Positions 24,942 through 30,176 of a stretch of DNA of 58,575 bases are shown piece by piece. The DNA is taken from the NCBI GenBank assembly GCA_009835325.1, contig VXWP01000039.1, forward strand, positions 1 through 58,575, read 5' to 3'. This stretch comes from Gemmatimonadota bacterium (GTDB lineage: Bacteria; JAAXHH01). The stretch's first letter is position 1; each line of letters opens with the position of its first letter. The position numbers were made by a program, and so were the translations under genes. A model generated the notes under the pieces. It was given only the letters and a program-made list of their open reading frames with translations, was not told the DNA's origin and ran no database searches.

Positions 24942-26780
24942 ATGTCTCGACATATGAAACTGGTCATGATGACCGGCTTGATCGCGCTGATGGGTGGGTT
25001 TTTGCAGACCGAACCGGGCGCGGAGCGTTCGGTAGCGACCGACCGCTTGCGCTCGGCCGATGACGCGGCACGGATCACAAACGGCGCGGAAATTGCCGGC
25101 CCGATCTCGAAAAGCACGGAAAACGCGGAACGAACGATCCGGGAGATCACCGGTCTGTTCGGTCCTGAGGAAGCCTACGCCCGCCGCGGTTTCGGTGGTT
25201 TCCGGAGTTCGCGTTCCCTTTGGAATCGCCGCAGTTCCTTTGGCCGGCGCAGCCCCTTCGCCCGGAGAAGCACGCCTGCCGCCACGCGCCAGACGCCGGC
25301 GCGCACTACGGGGCAATCCGCCACGCCGGCACGCAGCACCTCGGCCGGGCAGCCCTCGGCCACCGCGGCGCGGTCGACCCGGGCAGGTGCCGCAACCGCC
25401 GGCCGGGCCACGGCGCGGTCTTCGGTCATGGGCCGGCGGGTCCAGAGCGAGACGGCGCGCCGGTCGCTGGCCACGCACCAGTCCAGGCAGGCCGGTTTCG
25501 CCCGGTCGTCCAATTCGGCGGCCAATACGAGCACCTACCGGGACAACGGCCTCTACAACCGGGGCTCGCAGAACCGCACGTCCTACGACAACTACTACGC
25601 GGGTCGAGATAGTTATTACGGGGGCATGGGCTGGAGGACGCCGGGTTACGCCTTCATGTCATACCCCAGCTTCGGCATGTGGGACGCCCTGTTCATGTGG
25701 TCCATGCTGGACATGATGAGCAGCCGCCGTCACTACGCGGTGGCCCATCACCATGCCAACGACCCGGGATACCAGGAATGGCGCGGCGAGGCCGAGCGCC
25801 TGGCCGAGGACAACGAGGAACTGCGGGCTAAGCTGGACGAGCTCGACCGGCAGGTCGCCACGCTGGAAGGCACGCCGAGGGATCCCGAATACCTGCCGCC
25901 CGGCGTTACCCCGGCGATCGCCCTGGCCGCCGAAGTCGTGGCCACCGCCGATCCGAACCAGCCCCGCATCACGGTGAATACGGGGGTGGAGAACGGCAAT
26001 TACCACCGATTCGGCCAGATCCTGCAGTCCCACCTGCCGGATTTCGACGTGATGCTCGAGACGACGGCGGGTTCTGAGGAGAACCTCAACAACCTGGTAC
26101 GGAACCAGGTCGACGCGATCCTCGTGCAGAGCGACATCCTGAACTCCTACCTGCGCAAGAACCCTGACGCGGAAGACCAGCTGGTCGGATTGCAGTCGAC
26201 CCTGTACACCGAGTACGTGCAGCTGATCGTCAACGAGGACGGCGGCATCGCGAGCGTGTCCGACCTCGAGCCGAACACCCATATCGTGTACGTCGGCCCC
26301 CGGGGTTCCGGGACGCACCGGGCCTGGGAGGGCTTCGTCCTGCAGGATCCGAGGTACGGGGAATTCAACACGCGGTTCGCCAGCTACGAGGAAGCGCTGA
26401 GCCAGGTGTCTGAAAACGCCAACGCGGTCATGCTGTTCGTCGCCGGCCTCAACTCGGAACTGCTCAAAGAGGCGGACCGGCAGTACGGACTGCAGTTGAG
26501 CATGGTCGCCGTGGATGAGCACTATTTCAGCACGGCCGTGGACCAGTTCGGCAACACGATCTACGAAGTGGCGACGATCCCCCACGAGACCTATCCCGAG
26601 CTGCAGGAAGGCTGGCTCTTCGGCTATTTCGACAGCAGCGTGGAGACGCTCACAGTGGACGCCATCCTGATCCTGTCCAAGCAGTGGGTGGATACCTACG
26701 GCAGCAAGCCGATGACCCTCTTCGAGGACGCCCTGTGGCGGTCCATCGACGACATCAAGCCCATCGTGGGCGAGGAGTAG
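24942..26780 (+). CDS. Large exported TAXI-family binding protein with low-complexity and coiled-coil N-terminal region
   Basis: A 612-residue protein. Residues 1-27 look like a signal or anchor (MKLVMMTGLIALMGGFLQ). Residues 80-200 are almost only Arg, Ser, Ala, Thr and Gly. Residues 200-235 are rich in Tyr/Gly/Asn (YDNYYAGRDSYYGGMGW), 237-260 are a Met/Trp/Phe-rich hydrophobic stretch (MWDALFMWSMLDMM), and 275-310 form a coiled coil (RLAEDNEELRAKLDELDRQV). Residues 340-612 match TAXI-type TRAP solute-binding domains (ITVNTGVENGNYHRFGQIL, NQVDAILVQSDIL, IVYVGPRGSGTHRAWEGF). No TRAP permease lies nearby, so uptake is unlikely; ligand sensing is more plausible. It begins an operon with DUF2491 and a PspA-like protein (gap 12 bp). 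GGGGAAG precedes the start. Confidence 0.8.
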   Translation: MSRHMKLVMMTGLIALMGGFLQTEPGAERSVATDRLRSADDAARITNGAEIAGPISKSTENAERTIREITGLFGPEEAYARRGFGGFRSSRSLWNRRSSFGRRSPFARRSTPAATRQTPARTTGQSATPARSTSAGQPSATAARSTRAGAATAGRATARSSVMGRRVQSETARRSLATHQSRQAGFARSSNSAANTSTYRDNGLYNRGSQNRTSYDNYYAGRDSYYGGMGWRTPGYAFMSYPSFGMWDALFMWSMLDMMSSRRHYAVAHHHANDPGYQEWRGEAERLAEDNEELRAKLDELDRQVATLEGTPRDPEYLPPGVTPAIALAAEVVATADPNQPRITVNTGVENGNYHRFGQILQSHLPDFDVMLETTAGSEENLNNLVRNQVDAILVQSDILNSYLRKNPDAEDQLVGLQSTLYTEYVQLIVNEDGGIASVSDLEPNTHIVYVGPRGSGTHRAWEGFVLQDPRYGEFNTRFASYEEALSQVSENANAVMLFVAGLNSELLKEADRQYGLQLSMVAVDEHYFSTAVDQFGNTIYEVATIPHETYPELQEGWLFGYFDSSVETLTVDAILILSKQWVDTYGSKPMTLFEDALWRSIDDIKPIVGEE

Positions 26781-26792
26781 CGCCAGGGCCCG

Positions 26793-27494
26793 ATGAGCTT
26801 TCACATCATTCGTTCCGTAGCGAAGAAGCAGGCGAAAGAGGCGGCTGGTTTCTTTCGGAAGAAACCCGAGCGGGTCGATCAGGACCTGCCCCTGGGCGTC
26901 GCCATCGACCGGCTGGTCGACATCGACGCCGTCGCGTCGTCCACCTTTGTCGGCCTCGTCCACTTCGACTTTCCCTCCTTTCCCCTGGCTATCGAGGCGA
27001 TCGGAAAGATCGATCTCGGCGAAGGGGCCATGGCCTATCGGTGCTATCTCCAGGGGACCTCGGCGTTTCTCCAGGTGGTGTCGGACCACGGAGAGCCCGT
27101 GGAATGCCGCCTGTACGTGCTCGACCGGGATCTGTATCCCCATTCGGAGGAAGTCTGGGAACAGTGGCTGAACGGGGAAAACGGCATCATCGGATCACCG
27201 GAAGTGCTGCACGGCGAAGGGGAGGAAAGAAGCTACCAGCGGGAATGGATGGACGGCGACGGACAGGCGGCGCCGATACAGGTCGACGAGCGGATCATTC
27301 GCGACGCGTACGGAGAGCAGGTCTTCGAGGAAACCCAGCAGGCCATGTCCTACTTCCGGGTGGCAAGTGGAGACCCCCACAACCCGGAAGACCCCGAGCG
27401 CGTGGATGAATTCCTGTTGATCAGCGCGGGCGACGGGGTTATAGAACTGTACCTGGGCGTGGCATTGATGCTCGAGGAAGTCACGGTTATTTAA
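26793..27494 (+). CDS. DUF2491-family protein (YjfK-like)
   Basis: A 233-residue soluble protein that I assign to DUF2491, the family of E. coli YjfK. The recognisable pattern is AIGKIDLGEGAMAYRCYLQGTSAFLQ in the middle, WLNGENGIIGSPEV, then FLLISAGDGVIELYLGVAL at the end. The biochemical function of the family is unknown. In E. coli, yjfK sits beside yjfJ (a PspA paralogue), and here too the next gene is PspA-like. The N terminus FHIIRSVAKKQAKEAAGFF is amphipathic and resembles the start of the next protein (IWKFLSRVGKKQAGNALESF), as if both touch the same membrane surface. The gap to the next gene is 18 bp. Confidence 0.78.
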   Translation: MSFHIIRSVAKKQAKEAAGFFRKKPERVDQDLPLGVAIDRLVDIDAVASSTFVGLVHFDFPSFPLAIEAIGKIDLGEGAMAYRCYLQGTSAFLQVVSDHGEPVECRLYVLDRDLYPHSEEVWEQWLNGENGIIGSPEVLHGEGEERSYQREWMDGDGQAAPIQVDERIIRDAYGEQVFEETQQAMSYFRVASGDPHNPEDPERVDEFLLISAGDGVIELYLGVALMLEEVTVI

Positions 27495-27512: not shown

Positions 27513-28283
27513 ATGATCTGGAAGTTTCTCTCCCGCGTCGGCAAGAAACAGGCCGGCAACGCCCTGGAGTCCTTCACCCAGGCCGTGGTGGCCTTCGACC
27601 CGGAAACCGCCTCCGAGGCGCAGATCTCCCTCATGGAAGAGGAACTCGACAAGCTCGGGAAGCGGGTCGGCAAGGCCGAGATGGACGTGAAGAAGGACCA
27701 TGAAGAGACGCAGGCACTGTTGACGCAGTACGACCGGTACCTGGCCGCCGCCGAACGGATCGAAGGCCAGCTCGAAGAGGCGGATGAGGGCCAGCGGCCC
27801 AAGCTGGAGGAGAGTCTTGAAAAGCTGGTCGCGGAACTGGAGCGTCTGAACCCGGAGATCGAACGGGAACGCCAGGAGGACCAGGAAGCGGAGGCCTTCG
27901 CGACCGAGCTGCGCCAGGCCTACGATGTGGCGGCGGAGAAGCTCAAAAAGGCGCAGGTCCAGCTGAAACAGGCCCAGCGACGCATGGAGCAGGCCCGGAT
28001 GAAGAAGGAGCGGGCCCTCGAACGCGCCGAGGGCGTGCGGCAGGCCTCGGGGCTGAGCAGTTCAATGGGCGGACTCGATACGGCCCTCAACGCCATGGAC
28101 ATGGAGACGGAGAAGGCGGAGACCACCTCCCGTGCCGCAGAACTGAAGATCGGCGCCTTCGGCCAGACCGAAATCACCGACGATCCAAACATCGCGGCGG
28201 CCCTGGAAGCGGCCGACAAACCCGCGCTGCCCGCATCCTCGACGCGGGACCGGCTGGCGGCCCTGCGTTCCAGGAAGTCCTGA
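27513..28283 (+). CDS. PspA/IM30 (ESCRT-III-like) family coiled-coil protein, YjfJ-like
   Basis: A 256-residue, almost entirely helical protein. The N-terminal amphipathic helix IWKFLSRVGKKQAGNAL is followed by long charged coiled-coil segments (about 35-170: LMEEELDKLGKRVGKAEMDVKKD, AAEKLKKAQVQLKQAQRRMEQA). A Ser/Met/Gly linker then leads to a short C-terminal helix RDRLAALRSR. This is the architecture of PspA/Vipp1/IM30 proteins, which polymerise on damaged inner membranes, and particularly of the YjfJ branch, given the DUF2491 partner. AAAGGA precedes the ATG. A terminator-like hairpin follows, so this probably ends the three-gene transcript, with partial readthrough to the channel. Confidence 0.75.
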   Translation: MIWKFLSRVGKKQAGNALESFTQAVVAFDPETASEAQISLMEEELDKLGKRVGKAEMDVKKDHEETQALLTQYDRYLAAAERIEGQLEEADEGQRPKLEESLEKLVAELERLNPEIERERQEDQEAEAFATELRQAYDVAAEKLKKAQVQLKQAQRRMEQARMKKERALERAEGVRQASGLSSSMGGLDTALNAMDMETEKAETTSRAAELKIGAFGQTEITDDPNIAAALEAADKPALPASSTRDRLAALRSRKS

Positions 28284-28396: not shown

Positions 28397-29236
28397 ATGC
28401 CGGGAATCCTGTCCTCCCTCCTTGCGGCCGTACACCGTTTCGGTCCCTACGTACTGGCCGTCAACATGATCCTCTATTTCATCGAGTTGCAGTATACCCA
28501 GACGCGCAGCAGCCTGGACGCCGGCGCCTGGGCAGGGTTCATCTGGATCGAACGGGTCATCGCCGGGTTCTTCACCCTGGAATACGTGCTGCGCATCAGG
28601 CTGGCACCGCACAAGGGGAAGTACCTGCGCAGCGGGCTCGGGTTGATCGATCTGATCAGCATCCTGCCCTTCTGGATCGGATTCTATCCCGGCCTGACCC
28701 AGGAGCAGCTCGGCCTGGTGCGCGGCGCGCGGACGCTCCGGCTGCTCAAGATGTTCCGGTACAGCCCCAAGCTGGCGGAGTTCGCCCGGTCCATGTATAC
28801 CAATCGCGTCCGGGTCATTCCCATCTTCCTCATTACCATCATGTACCTGATGATCAGCTCCACCGTGATCTACGAGGTGGAACGCCGCGCCCAGCCGGAG
28901 GTATTCAATGTCTACGGCGACAGCATCTGGTGGGCCGTGGTGACCTCCACCACGGTGGGGTACGGGGACAAGTACCCGGTCACGCCCCTGGGACAGGGCG
29001 CCACCGTCCTGATGATGATGGTGGGCATCGGTATCGTGGGCATGATCTTCGGGTTTTTCGCGGACAGCTTCCACGACTCCAGGCAGCCGCTGGAACCCAC
29101 GTTAATGGAGGCGTACTGCAGAGGGGTTCAAGAAGAGGGGGCGGAGGGCCGAACGGTGCAGGCCCTGCGGGAGACCCACCGCAGCAACCCGCAATTCCTC
29201 ATCTTCGCCGATACGGTGGACCGGTATATCGGTTAG
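28397..29236 (+). CDS. Voltage-gated-type potassium channel
   Basis: A 279-residue six-helix channel of the VIC superfamily. S1-S4 occupy about residues 15-125; the S4 voltage sensor is RGARTLRLLKMFRY (109-122) with regularly spaced Arg. S5 is IPIFLITIMYLMISSTVIY. The pore helix and filter read SIWWAVVTSTTVGYGDKY, with the K+ signature TVGYGD at 186-191. S6 is ATVLMMMVGIGIVGMIFGFFAD. The short cytosolic C terminus has no RCK domain. A strong ribosome site (AGGAGG) precedes the ATG. K+ channels are recurrent neighbours of PspA/DUF2491-type clusters, so it probably belongs functionally with the upstream operon despite the terminator between them. Confidence 0.9.
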   Translation: MPGILSSLLAAVHRFGPYVLAVNMILYFIELQYTQTRSSLDAGAWAGFIWIERVIAGFFTLEYVLRIRLAPHKGKYLRSGLGLIDLISILPFWIGFYPGLTQEQLGLVRGARTLRLLKMFRYSPKLAEFARSMYTNRVRVIPIFLITIMYLMISSTVIYEVERRAQPEVFNVYGDSIWWAVVTSTTVGYGDKYPVTPLGQGATVLMMMVGIGIVGMIFGFFADSFHDSRQPLEPTLMEAYCRGVQEEGAEGRTVQALRETHRSNPQFLIFADTVDRYIG

Positions 29237-29250
29237 GTGGAAGGAACGAA

Positions 29251-30081
29251 CTAAAGGGATGAAGTCTCTTCGGACTCGGTCTCGGGATCAGTCTCCGGCT
29301 CGTACGTCCCGATGGATTCCTTGAGGGAAACCAGCCTGCGGAGCCGTCTCCGGTCTTTGGGCGTGAAACGATCCGTGTAGGCGTCGTAGATGGGTTGCTC
29401 GGGCGCCCCGTCGATGCGTGTGACGATCACGTAAAAGTAGAGGTTCTCCACGTCCGCTGGAGCCTTCTTCCATACCGGCGACAGCAACGCGAAGTTCCAG
29501 ACGGCCCGCTCGTCCGGTCCCAGGTCCTTGCCTTCCGTGAGCCGGATATTGTAGTTGAAGTCGTCATCCAGGATCCACTTCCGGGGTTCGTTTCTCATGA
29601 GCGATCCGCGGAAATAGACCTTCGAGATCCGGTGTTCGGTCCGGTTGTGTATGGAGAGTTTCACGACGGACTGGCCCCGCTGCACGTAGTACTCGACCCC
29701 GCGCACCCTCACGTCCTTGAGACTTTCCATGGCGGAGTCCGTGTTCTCCTGCTTCTCCTCGAGGGCCTCAATGGCCTTGTTCACCCGCTCGTTCCACTCC
29801 GCGAAGATGTCCGTCGCGTCCATTCCGTCCAGCCGGCCGCGGATCCGGTTCTGAATGGCGTCCGACGCGTTCAGCGAGCTGATCACGTTGTCGCTGTAGA
29901 GGTACTCGAAGGCATCCAGCACGTCGTCGAGTCTTTCCTGGTCGTCCTCGGCCAGGGTGGCCTTGACCTCGGCGATGGTTGCATCGAAGGTGTCGACGTC
30001 CGTACCGTCTATGGTTGGACCGGACTTGCAGGCCATCGCGACCAGCGCGAGCCCCGCGGTAAACAGACTCAGGCGCACCAT
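29251..30081 (-). CDS. Lipoprotein, possibly DUF6694-like N-terminal domain plus beta-sandwich
   Basis: A 276-residue lipoprotein: signal RLSLFTAGLALVAMAC with the lipobox VAMAC at about residue 18. The N-terminal domain TIDGTDVDTFDATIAEVKATL...LDDVLDAFEYL...RLDGMDATDIFAEWNE recalls the small DUF6694 lipoprotein family. The C-terminal half (about 120-240) is beta-rich (VEYYVQRGQSVVKLSIHNRT, ISKVYFRGSL) and could be an Ig-like or FxLYD-like domain. The tail is Glu/Thr rich. I chose the ATG at 30081 because AGGAG lies nine bases before it; the leader carries the 13-base GGCAGGAGACGAA twice, so ATG at 30099 is a rival start. It converges on the K+ channel gene with a 14-bp gap. Confidence 0.6.
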   Translation of the reverse strand: MVRLSLFTAGLALVAMACKSGPTIDGTDVDTFDATIAEVKATLAEDDQERLDDVLDAFEYLYSDNVISSLNASDAIQNRIRGRLDGMDATDIFAEWNERVNKAIEALEEKQENTDSAMESLKDVRVRGVEYYVQRGQSVVKLSIHNRTEHRISKVYFRGSLMRNEPRKWILDDDFNYNIRLTEGKDLGPDERAVWNFALLSPVWKKAPADVENLYFYVIVTRIDGAPEQPIYDAYTDRFTPKDRRRLRRLVSLKESIGTYEPETDPETESEETSSL

Positions 30082-30176
30082 TGTTCGTCTCCTGCCCATT
30101 CGTCTCCTGCCGAACACGCTGACGTAAGCATTTCGCTCATGTAAATACTATCACGGTTTGTGCTGAATGTACAAGA

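Follow-up and report, generated by a model that had tools for sequence, protein, structure and literature searches.

The window, a stretch of 58,575 nucleotides from a Gemmatimonadota bacterium, encodes a protein in which about 310 residues precede a TAXI-type solute-binding domain. Its gene heads a conserved cassette with genes for a DUF2491 (YjfK family) protein, a coiled-coil protein whose predicted fold is suggestive of PspA/Vipp1, and a K+ channel. We read the protein as an orphan, membrane-tethered, probably dimeric receptor of the glutamate class that may serve a compact YjfK/PspA/K+-channel envelope module. For this sensory reading we see roughly an even chance; our confidence in the anatomy of receptor and cassette is much higher.

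Architecture and integrity of the receptor

The open reading frame at 24942–26780 on the forward strand codes for a single intact protein of 612 amino acids. Frame, coordinates and segment order are as described in the original prediction. The segments are listed below with their dN/dS values, each the median of six codon comparisons with relatives.

24942–25007, + strand: residues 1–22, signal or signal-anchor segment, assigned by hydropathy (dN/dS 0.38)
25008–25151, + strand: residues 23–70, variable spacer with indels among relatives (dN/dS 0.43)
25152–25256, + strand: residues 71–105, conserved, near-invariant Arg/Ser-rich motif FGPEEAYARRGFG..RSSRSLWNRRSSF (dN/dS 0.034)
25257–25421, + strand: residues 106–160, Arg/Ser/Thr/Ala low-complexity tract, assigned by composition (dN/dS 0.168)
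25422–25631, + strand: residues 161–230, conserved basic, Tyr/Gly-rich segment with many invariant columns (dN/dS 0.078)
25632–25727, + strand: residues 231–262, Met/Trp motif GMWDALFMWSMLD (dN/dS 0; best 19-residue Kyte-Doolittle mean 0.76)
25728–25919, + strand: residues 263–326, coiled coil DPGYxEWRxEAxRLAxDNxEL, then a YLPPGV motif, assigned by tblastn and by blastp identity to other stalks (dN/dS 0.064 for 263–325)
25920–26777, + strand: residues 327–612, TAXI-type solute-binding domain, assigned by TIGR02122, NMT1_3 and solved structures (dN/dS 0.059)
26001–26213, + strand: ligand-site residues Y354, S378, Q396 and E424, from the phmmer alignment to 8s4j (VcGluP Y45, S75, Q93 and E125)

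Only the signal segment and the spacer are relaxed. The low values across the N-terminal segments thus reveal conserved sequence behind a low-complexity appearance. A basic low-complexity tract had been predicted for residues 80–200, and the composition agrees with this (Arg 24, Ala 23, Ser 21, Thr 15; net charge +23). It is not a single tract, but consists of three pieces, of which 71–105 and 161–230 are nearly invariant and only residues 106–160 or so are loosely conserved. Also present are a Tyr/Gly tract, a Met/Trp stretch and an acidic coiled coil. Residues 1–326 gave no Pfam match at a meaningful score, and the basic region showed no significant similarity to the compared stalk proteins outside the host phylum.

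The receptor occurs in 14 of the 16 genomes of the host phylum that were examined. Besides its own genome (G000), all 11 genomes of the same genus carry it, with one copy split across two contigs. A member of the same family (G013) has it at 68–70% identity, and one of the same order (G015) retains its C-terminal part at a contig end; it is absent from G012 and G014. A profile of the stalk alone matches 13 of the 16 genomes, and there the long N-terminal half is kept in frame. The homologues of the 11 same-genus genomes and of G013 as well as the partial copy of G015 keep the reading frame and contain no internal stops. Purifying selection on parts of the N-terminal half is even stronger than on the TAXI domain. 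A frameshift or other artefact as the origin of this half, a concern of the original prediction, is therefore ruled out. A full-length AlphaFold model of the receptor was set aside because of its pLDDT of 32.9 and its shallow alignment of only 12 closely related rows.

The stalk outside the receptor

Residues 226–325, approximately, form a domain without a Pfam model. As to whether the stalk occurs elsewhere, a check that had been suggested, it was found apart from TAXI, either fused to DUF2491 or on its own. The plasmid, genome and phage searches run revealed no sensor domain other than TAXI on it. The stalked TAXI receptor was found in the host phylum only, elsewhere the stalk occurs without any ligand domain. 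A tblastn search with the whole receptor against 72,556 plasmid records matched 20, seven in the TAXI domain only and 13 in residues 226–324 only. The latter comprise 12 Azospirillum plasmids (48–57% identity) and one Bosea plasmid (36%), and a Bosea query brought one further Bosea plasmid. Pairwise BLAST with residues 226–325 gave E 1.6e-35 for Azospirillum (L031) and 2.8e-17 for Bosea.

In four of these loci (L031 to L034) stalk, transmembrane helix and DUF2491 follow each other in one protein, with DUF2491 recognized by Pfam in L031 and L032 and by resemblance in L033 and L034. All six contexts opened (L031–L034, L036, L076) contain a DUF350 gene and one more gene downstream, which was assigned to the coiled-coil family of the window by tblastn or by reading; the unannotated L033 was read from its open reading frames. 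The Azospirillum and Bosea proteins thus share the stalk (36–57% identity) and the downstream coiled-coil family with the receptor, whereas a transmembrane helix and a cytosolic DUF2491 replace TAXI, and DUF350 replaces the channel. They are annotated merely as DUF2491 family. The annotated starts of the Bosea DUF2491 genes L032:6007-7125 and L076:3582-4505 apparently lie too far downstream, so that the annotated proteins lack their signal peptide and some of the stalk, and several Azospirillum stalk records carry no annotation.

Over a broad sample of 384 genomes, which seems to contain no close relatives of the proteobacterial stalk carriers, the stalk profile gave 13 matches, every one in the host phylum. 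A PF07750 search pointed to one candidate genome (G072), whose class and phylum are represented by one genome each in this sample.

The same stalk was found in large phages. A stalk-profile scan of IMG/VR returned two loci. In L115 a stalk-transmembrane protein is followed by DUF2491 (Pfam E 1.2e-17) and a coiled-coil protein, and this trio is flanked by a GIY-YIG endonuclease and a DNA methylase. The L116 contig breaks off within its stalk gene, which comes shortly after a T4-type RNA ligase. Scanning with the L115 coiled-coil protein revealed a second complete trio of the same order on a 221-kb contig (L160), in which the DUF2491-like gene was assigned by position and resemblance. Pairwise BLAST with residues 226–325 of the window gave E 2.5e-27 for L115 and 1.8e-17 for L160. 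Residues 263–326 are 47% and 46% identical to them by blastp, and the Met/Trp motif GMWDALFMWSMLD is common to the Azospirillum, Bosea and phage stalks. The L115 stalk protein had no match in the named phage collection. The trios, at L115:1319-3756 and L160:4157-6735, may represent a phage-encoded envelope-maintenance module; the combination of stalk, DUF2491 and PspA-like gene suggests large phages that bring such a module of their own.

Membrane topology

The most hydrophobic part of the receptor is its N-terminus, where the best 19-residue mean reaches 1.37 in the window and 2.21 in the L026 homologue. Residues 1–22 have neither a lipobox cysteine nor a clear AxA site. Residues 237–260 had been taken for a membrane-like stretch, a proposal that hydropathy does not support: the best 19-residue Kyte-Doolittle mean of 0.76 is below the usual transmembrane threshold of 1.6, and the Met/Trp stretch has too polar a composition to span the membrane as a helix. 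Its helical hydrophobic moment is also low in most windows, which gives little backing to an amphipathic surface helix. A second hydropathy window at residues 318–336 reaches 1.34 but contains two prolines and is unlike a membrane helix.

Orientation of the stalk can be deduced from its relatives. In the Azospirillum, Bosea and phage proteins it is flanked by a hydrophobic segment on its N-terminal side and by a transmembrane helix on its C-terminal side, after which basic sequence follows. By the positive-inside rule, this arrangement puts the stalk outside the cytoplasm, on the outer side of the inner membrane. The earlier proposal of a ligand domain presented on an extracytoplasmic stalk thereby gains support, and in the host organism the receptor would be tethered to the inner membrane with a periplasmic stalk. 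Within residues 280–309 a heptad register can be recognized by eye, in which L287, L294, L301 and L308 occupy one core position and N291, L298 and V305 the other. These positions are conserved in most homologues, and the stalk is probably dimeric by means of this short coiled coil.

The TAXI domain and its putative ligand

TIGR02122 matches approximately residues 327–581 with E 9.7e-20 and 70.7 bits, below its cut-off of 84.35, while Pfam NMT1_3 matches residues 360–553 with E 2.8e-12 and 47.3 bits at a cut-off of 27. The nearest solved structures are TAXI binding proteins, including 8u79, 1us4, 9ibo and 8s4j. In the alignment to 8s4j, for which the offset of the VcGluP residue numbering was counted by hand, the Tyr, Ser, Gln and Glu of the glutamate site are conserved. 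Y200 and M201 of VcGluP correspond to F499 and V500 in the window, and D157 to T458. Y354, Q396 and E424 are invariant in all eight rows of an alignment of three phylum and five phage sequences. Among the VcGluP mutants described in PMC11574862, Y45A (213-fold) and Q93A (990-fold) have the strongest effects, and the same account gives the Tyr in 78% and the Gln in 54% of TAXI sequences. As both residues are so widespread, their conservation supports a glutamate ligand but does not prove it. On sequence grounds, glutamate or a similar amino acid is the predicted ligand of the domain.

The invariant ligand-pocket residues also bear on a different view of the protein, that of a structural or assembly factor. 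Here, the basic region would sit on peptidoglycan, LPS or another envelope polymer, and TAXI would be a non-transport binding or chaperone domain of a DUF2491/PspA-like complex. The net charge of +23 over residues 80–200 fits such a role, as do the chaperone-like functions that PMC11237479 proposes for PspA partners. The invariant pocket, on the other hand, argues that small-molecule binding is retained, and in the Pfam scan the basic region resembled no polymer-binding domain. We regard this explanation as unlikely.

Compared to VcGluP (8s4j) and TTHA1157 (1us4, 1us5), which belong to the same domain family, the receptor differs by its approximately 310 additional N-terminal residues, by its TIGR02122 score below the cut-off and by the lack of a fused QM permease nearby. 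Fused QM permeases are typical of TAXI systems. No second TAXI match and no TAXI-type permease were detected in genome G000, and the neighbours of the receptor are not permeases. The single DctM match of this genome lies on another contig (C113) in a frame of 459 amino acids, unlike the length of a fused TAXI-type permease. With no cognate membrane component of the TAXI-TRAP type found in G000, the protein has the TAXI domain but, as far as these searches reach, is not part of a TAXI-TRAP transporter.

TAXI proteins that work without TRAP permeases are known. BP0403 of Bordetella pertussis is described as an elongated, dimeric, membrane-tethered TAXI protein that serves the non-TRAP transporter GltS (PMC12344293). 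On this description, the two proteins have in common an elongated shape, a membrane tether, a helical part ahead of the binding domain and the lack of a TRAP permease. For BP0403 a lipoprotein is predicted whose N-terminal domain is globular, and its partner is GltS; the receptor has neither lipobox nor GltS and is instead accompanied by DUF2491 and K+ channel genes.

This precedent gives some weight to high-affinity uptake, in which the protein would pass its ligand to a secondary transporter encoded elsewhere and the stalk would be a flexible dimeric tether as in BP0403. The DctM-type TRAP permease gene of G000 could also be cited in its favour, though the length of its frame does not fit the fused type. 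GltS (PF03616) is absent from G000 and every other receptor-bearing genome; it is missing in 15 of the 16 phylum genomes, and the one that has it, G012, lacks the receptor. Moreover, the conserved neighbours of the receptor are not organic-solute transporters, and the other partners of its stalk are DUF2491 and the coiled-coil gene. An uptake function therefore appears rather improbable to us. As a separate observation, a 694-residue frame in genome G043 (L113:2417-4498) shows an unusual TAXI architecture of hydrophobic segment, TAXI-like domain, further hydrophobic segments and helical tail.

The conserved gene cassette

Three genes follow the receptor on the same strand:

26793–27494, + strand: DUF2491 (YjfK family) protein, Pfam PF10679 E 5.4e-19, 12 bases past the receptor gene
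27513–28283, + strand: 256-residue coiled-coil protein with PspA/Vipp1-like predicted fold, from homologues, AlphaFold and Foldseek
28397–29236, + strand: K+ channel of the voltage-gated type, Pfam Ion_trans E 1.3e-29 and Ion_trans_2 E 2.9e-15

The intergenic gaps amount to 12, 18 and 113 bases. Co-transcription of the four genes is presumed, and given the gap of 113 bases the channel may have its own promoter. The DUF2491 protein shares 21% identity with E. coli YjfK (two-sequence E 2e-7). In the channel a TVGYGD filter is located at residue 186, and Pfam matched no ligand-sensing domain such as TrkA-N.

Ten of the 11 relative loci keep the order receptor, DUF2491, coiled coil, K+ channel. 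The remaining one, L027, breaks off within the receptor gene, and the contig end of L024 falls within the channel gene. Because L027 and L029 come from a single genome, on separate contigs, the ten conserved loci correspond to ten genomes. In L030 the search for flanking genes found none inside the locus, and L026 lacks the mandelate-racemase neighbour and has the lipoprotein-like gene at a greater distance. These differing flanks indicate that the four cassette genes travel as a unit. Across 240 genomes, DUF2491 was found in 14, exactly the 14 receptor carriers. The lipoprotein-like gene of the window (29251-30117, − strand) is of unassigned family, is convergent to the cassette and adjoins it in 7 of the 11 relative loci.

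Gene order thus ties the receptor to a DUF2491/PspA-like/K+-channel cassette and leads away from a plain binding protein. These genes resemble a membrane-stress system, which would fit a ligand-sensing role better than nutrient import.

Relation of the coiled-coil protein to PspA

Homologues of the coiled-coil protein are present in Azospirillum, Bosea and Indioceanicola at about 33–41% identity, with the Azospirillum copies at 38–41% over 98–99% of the length. The Pfam scan gave no PspA_IM30 (PF04012) match, and comparison with YjfJ gave no significant sequence match (hhalign P 0.037, probability 1.4%). In a Foldseek search with the AlphaFold model (pLDDT 72) the top eight matches were Vipp1/PspA chains, with a best E of 0.025, a weak value as is common for helical hairpins. 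VIA-align gave Z 10.3 for E. coli PspA (rmsd 2.7 over 131) and Z 9.1 for Vipp1 7o3x (rmsd 1.4 over 130), with similar Z for unrelated helical bundles. As the sequence tests are negative and the structure suggestive only, 'PspA-like' is used here for a resemblance in the modelled fold and not for membership in PspA.

The genetic context of the family is similar to that of yjf-type operons. On an Indioceanicola plasmid (L075:5524-9871) genes for DUF350, the coiled coil, DUF1190, GSP_synth and a K+ channel (Ion_trans_2) stand in a row. There, between DUF350 and DUF1190, the coiled-coil gene occupies PspA's position of the yjf-type operon, much like YjfJ in the E. coli order yjfIJKLMC and PspA in a 'third group' of these operons. 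This group includes PspA and a K+ channel with an intracellular ligand-sensing domain, as outlined in PMC11237479. Like it, the window cassette brings DUF2491, a K+ channel and a helical protein of PspA-like fold together in one place, and it differs by the addition of the TAXI receptor; the terms TAXI and substrate-binding do not occur in the main text of PMC11237479. Genes for DUF350, DUF1190, GSP_synth ATP-grasp and CesT/Tir were absent among the neighbouring open reading frames scanned with Pfam.

Proposed mode of action

In the sensory reading that we prefer as the simplest account, the N-terminal segment would export or anchor the receptor, and the Arg/Ser-rich and Met/Trp-rich regions together with the short coiled coil would form a periplasmic stalk. 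The TAXI domain at its end would bind glutamate or a related amino acid. Partners in the module would be the cytosolic DUF2491 (YjfK), the PspA/Vipp1-like helical protein and the K+ channel. Ligand on the TAXI domain could alter the stalk and thereby the state of the membrane partners. In this way an extracytoplasmic ligand would act on both K+ flux and the DUF2491/PspA-like arm. The signal might cross the membrane either through the N-terminal anchor or by direct contact with the channel; this signalling step, with receptor contact to the channel or to DUF2491, is what we infer from the arrangement.

The stalk itself would be the periplasmic end of the DUF2491/PspA-like module. In Alphaproteobacteria it is joined to DUF2491 through the membrane, and in the host phylum a ligand-binding domain replaces this link and a K+ channel is added to the cassette. 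In the literature on DUF2491, YjfK/DUF350/PspA and TAXI proteins no description of the stalk or of a stalked TAXI receptor was found. Tentatively, we propose as undescribed in the literature searched that a K+ channel and a membrane-remodelling protein of the PspA/Vipp1-like kind are under the control, in trans, of a periplasmic receptor of the glutamate class whose stalk is elsewhere attached to DUF2491, and that the stalk-DUF2491-PspA-like core is a mobile module of two bacterial phyla and large phages; we consider this possible, with the balance somewhat against it. For YjfK/PspA/K+-channel operons the literature examined names no input, and a receptor on their stalk offers a concrete ligand class and a test of what they sense. 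The stalk links DUF2491 to the periplasm in three architectures and thereby opens the topology of DUF2491 and its partners to testing.

Phage TAXI proteins

Outside the phylum, the sequences that come closest in pairwise comparison are small phage TAXI proteins with a signal-peptide-like start. Against the TAXI domain 17 of 18 phage rows score 84.7–122 bits and the best cellular row 75.1, and PHROG 6856 matches the domain at 6e-33. Together with the stalk-DUF2491-coiled-coil cassette in large phages, this could point towards phages, in which small TAXI proteins are common, as the source of the TAXI domain, and towards a cassette acting in phage-host conflict or in envelope protection during infection. 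In a tree of TAXI domains, whose root and several forks are weak, the domain is not nested within the phage group. A motif search found the stalk near none of 36 IMG/VR phage TAXI loci, and among 50,697 phage records 296 matched, none over 80% of the query, so the full receptor was present in no phage record searched. We judge this origin to be very unlikely. The tree took in two wrong-frame cellular rows with long branches (L078 and L079), and as it is partly spoiled in this way and lacks resolution, no direction of transfer is claimed.

PHROG 6856 TAXI proteins are encoded in phages of rhizobia, Vibrio and others (L117–L122, L123–L158), with no stalk nearby in the loci checked. A gene for a short hydrophobic protein follows the phage TAXI gene in three of six annotated contexts (L119, L120, L121). 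The aligned phage TAXI proteins retain the ligand Tyr, Gln and Glu.
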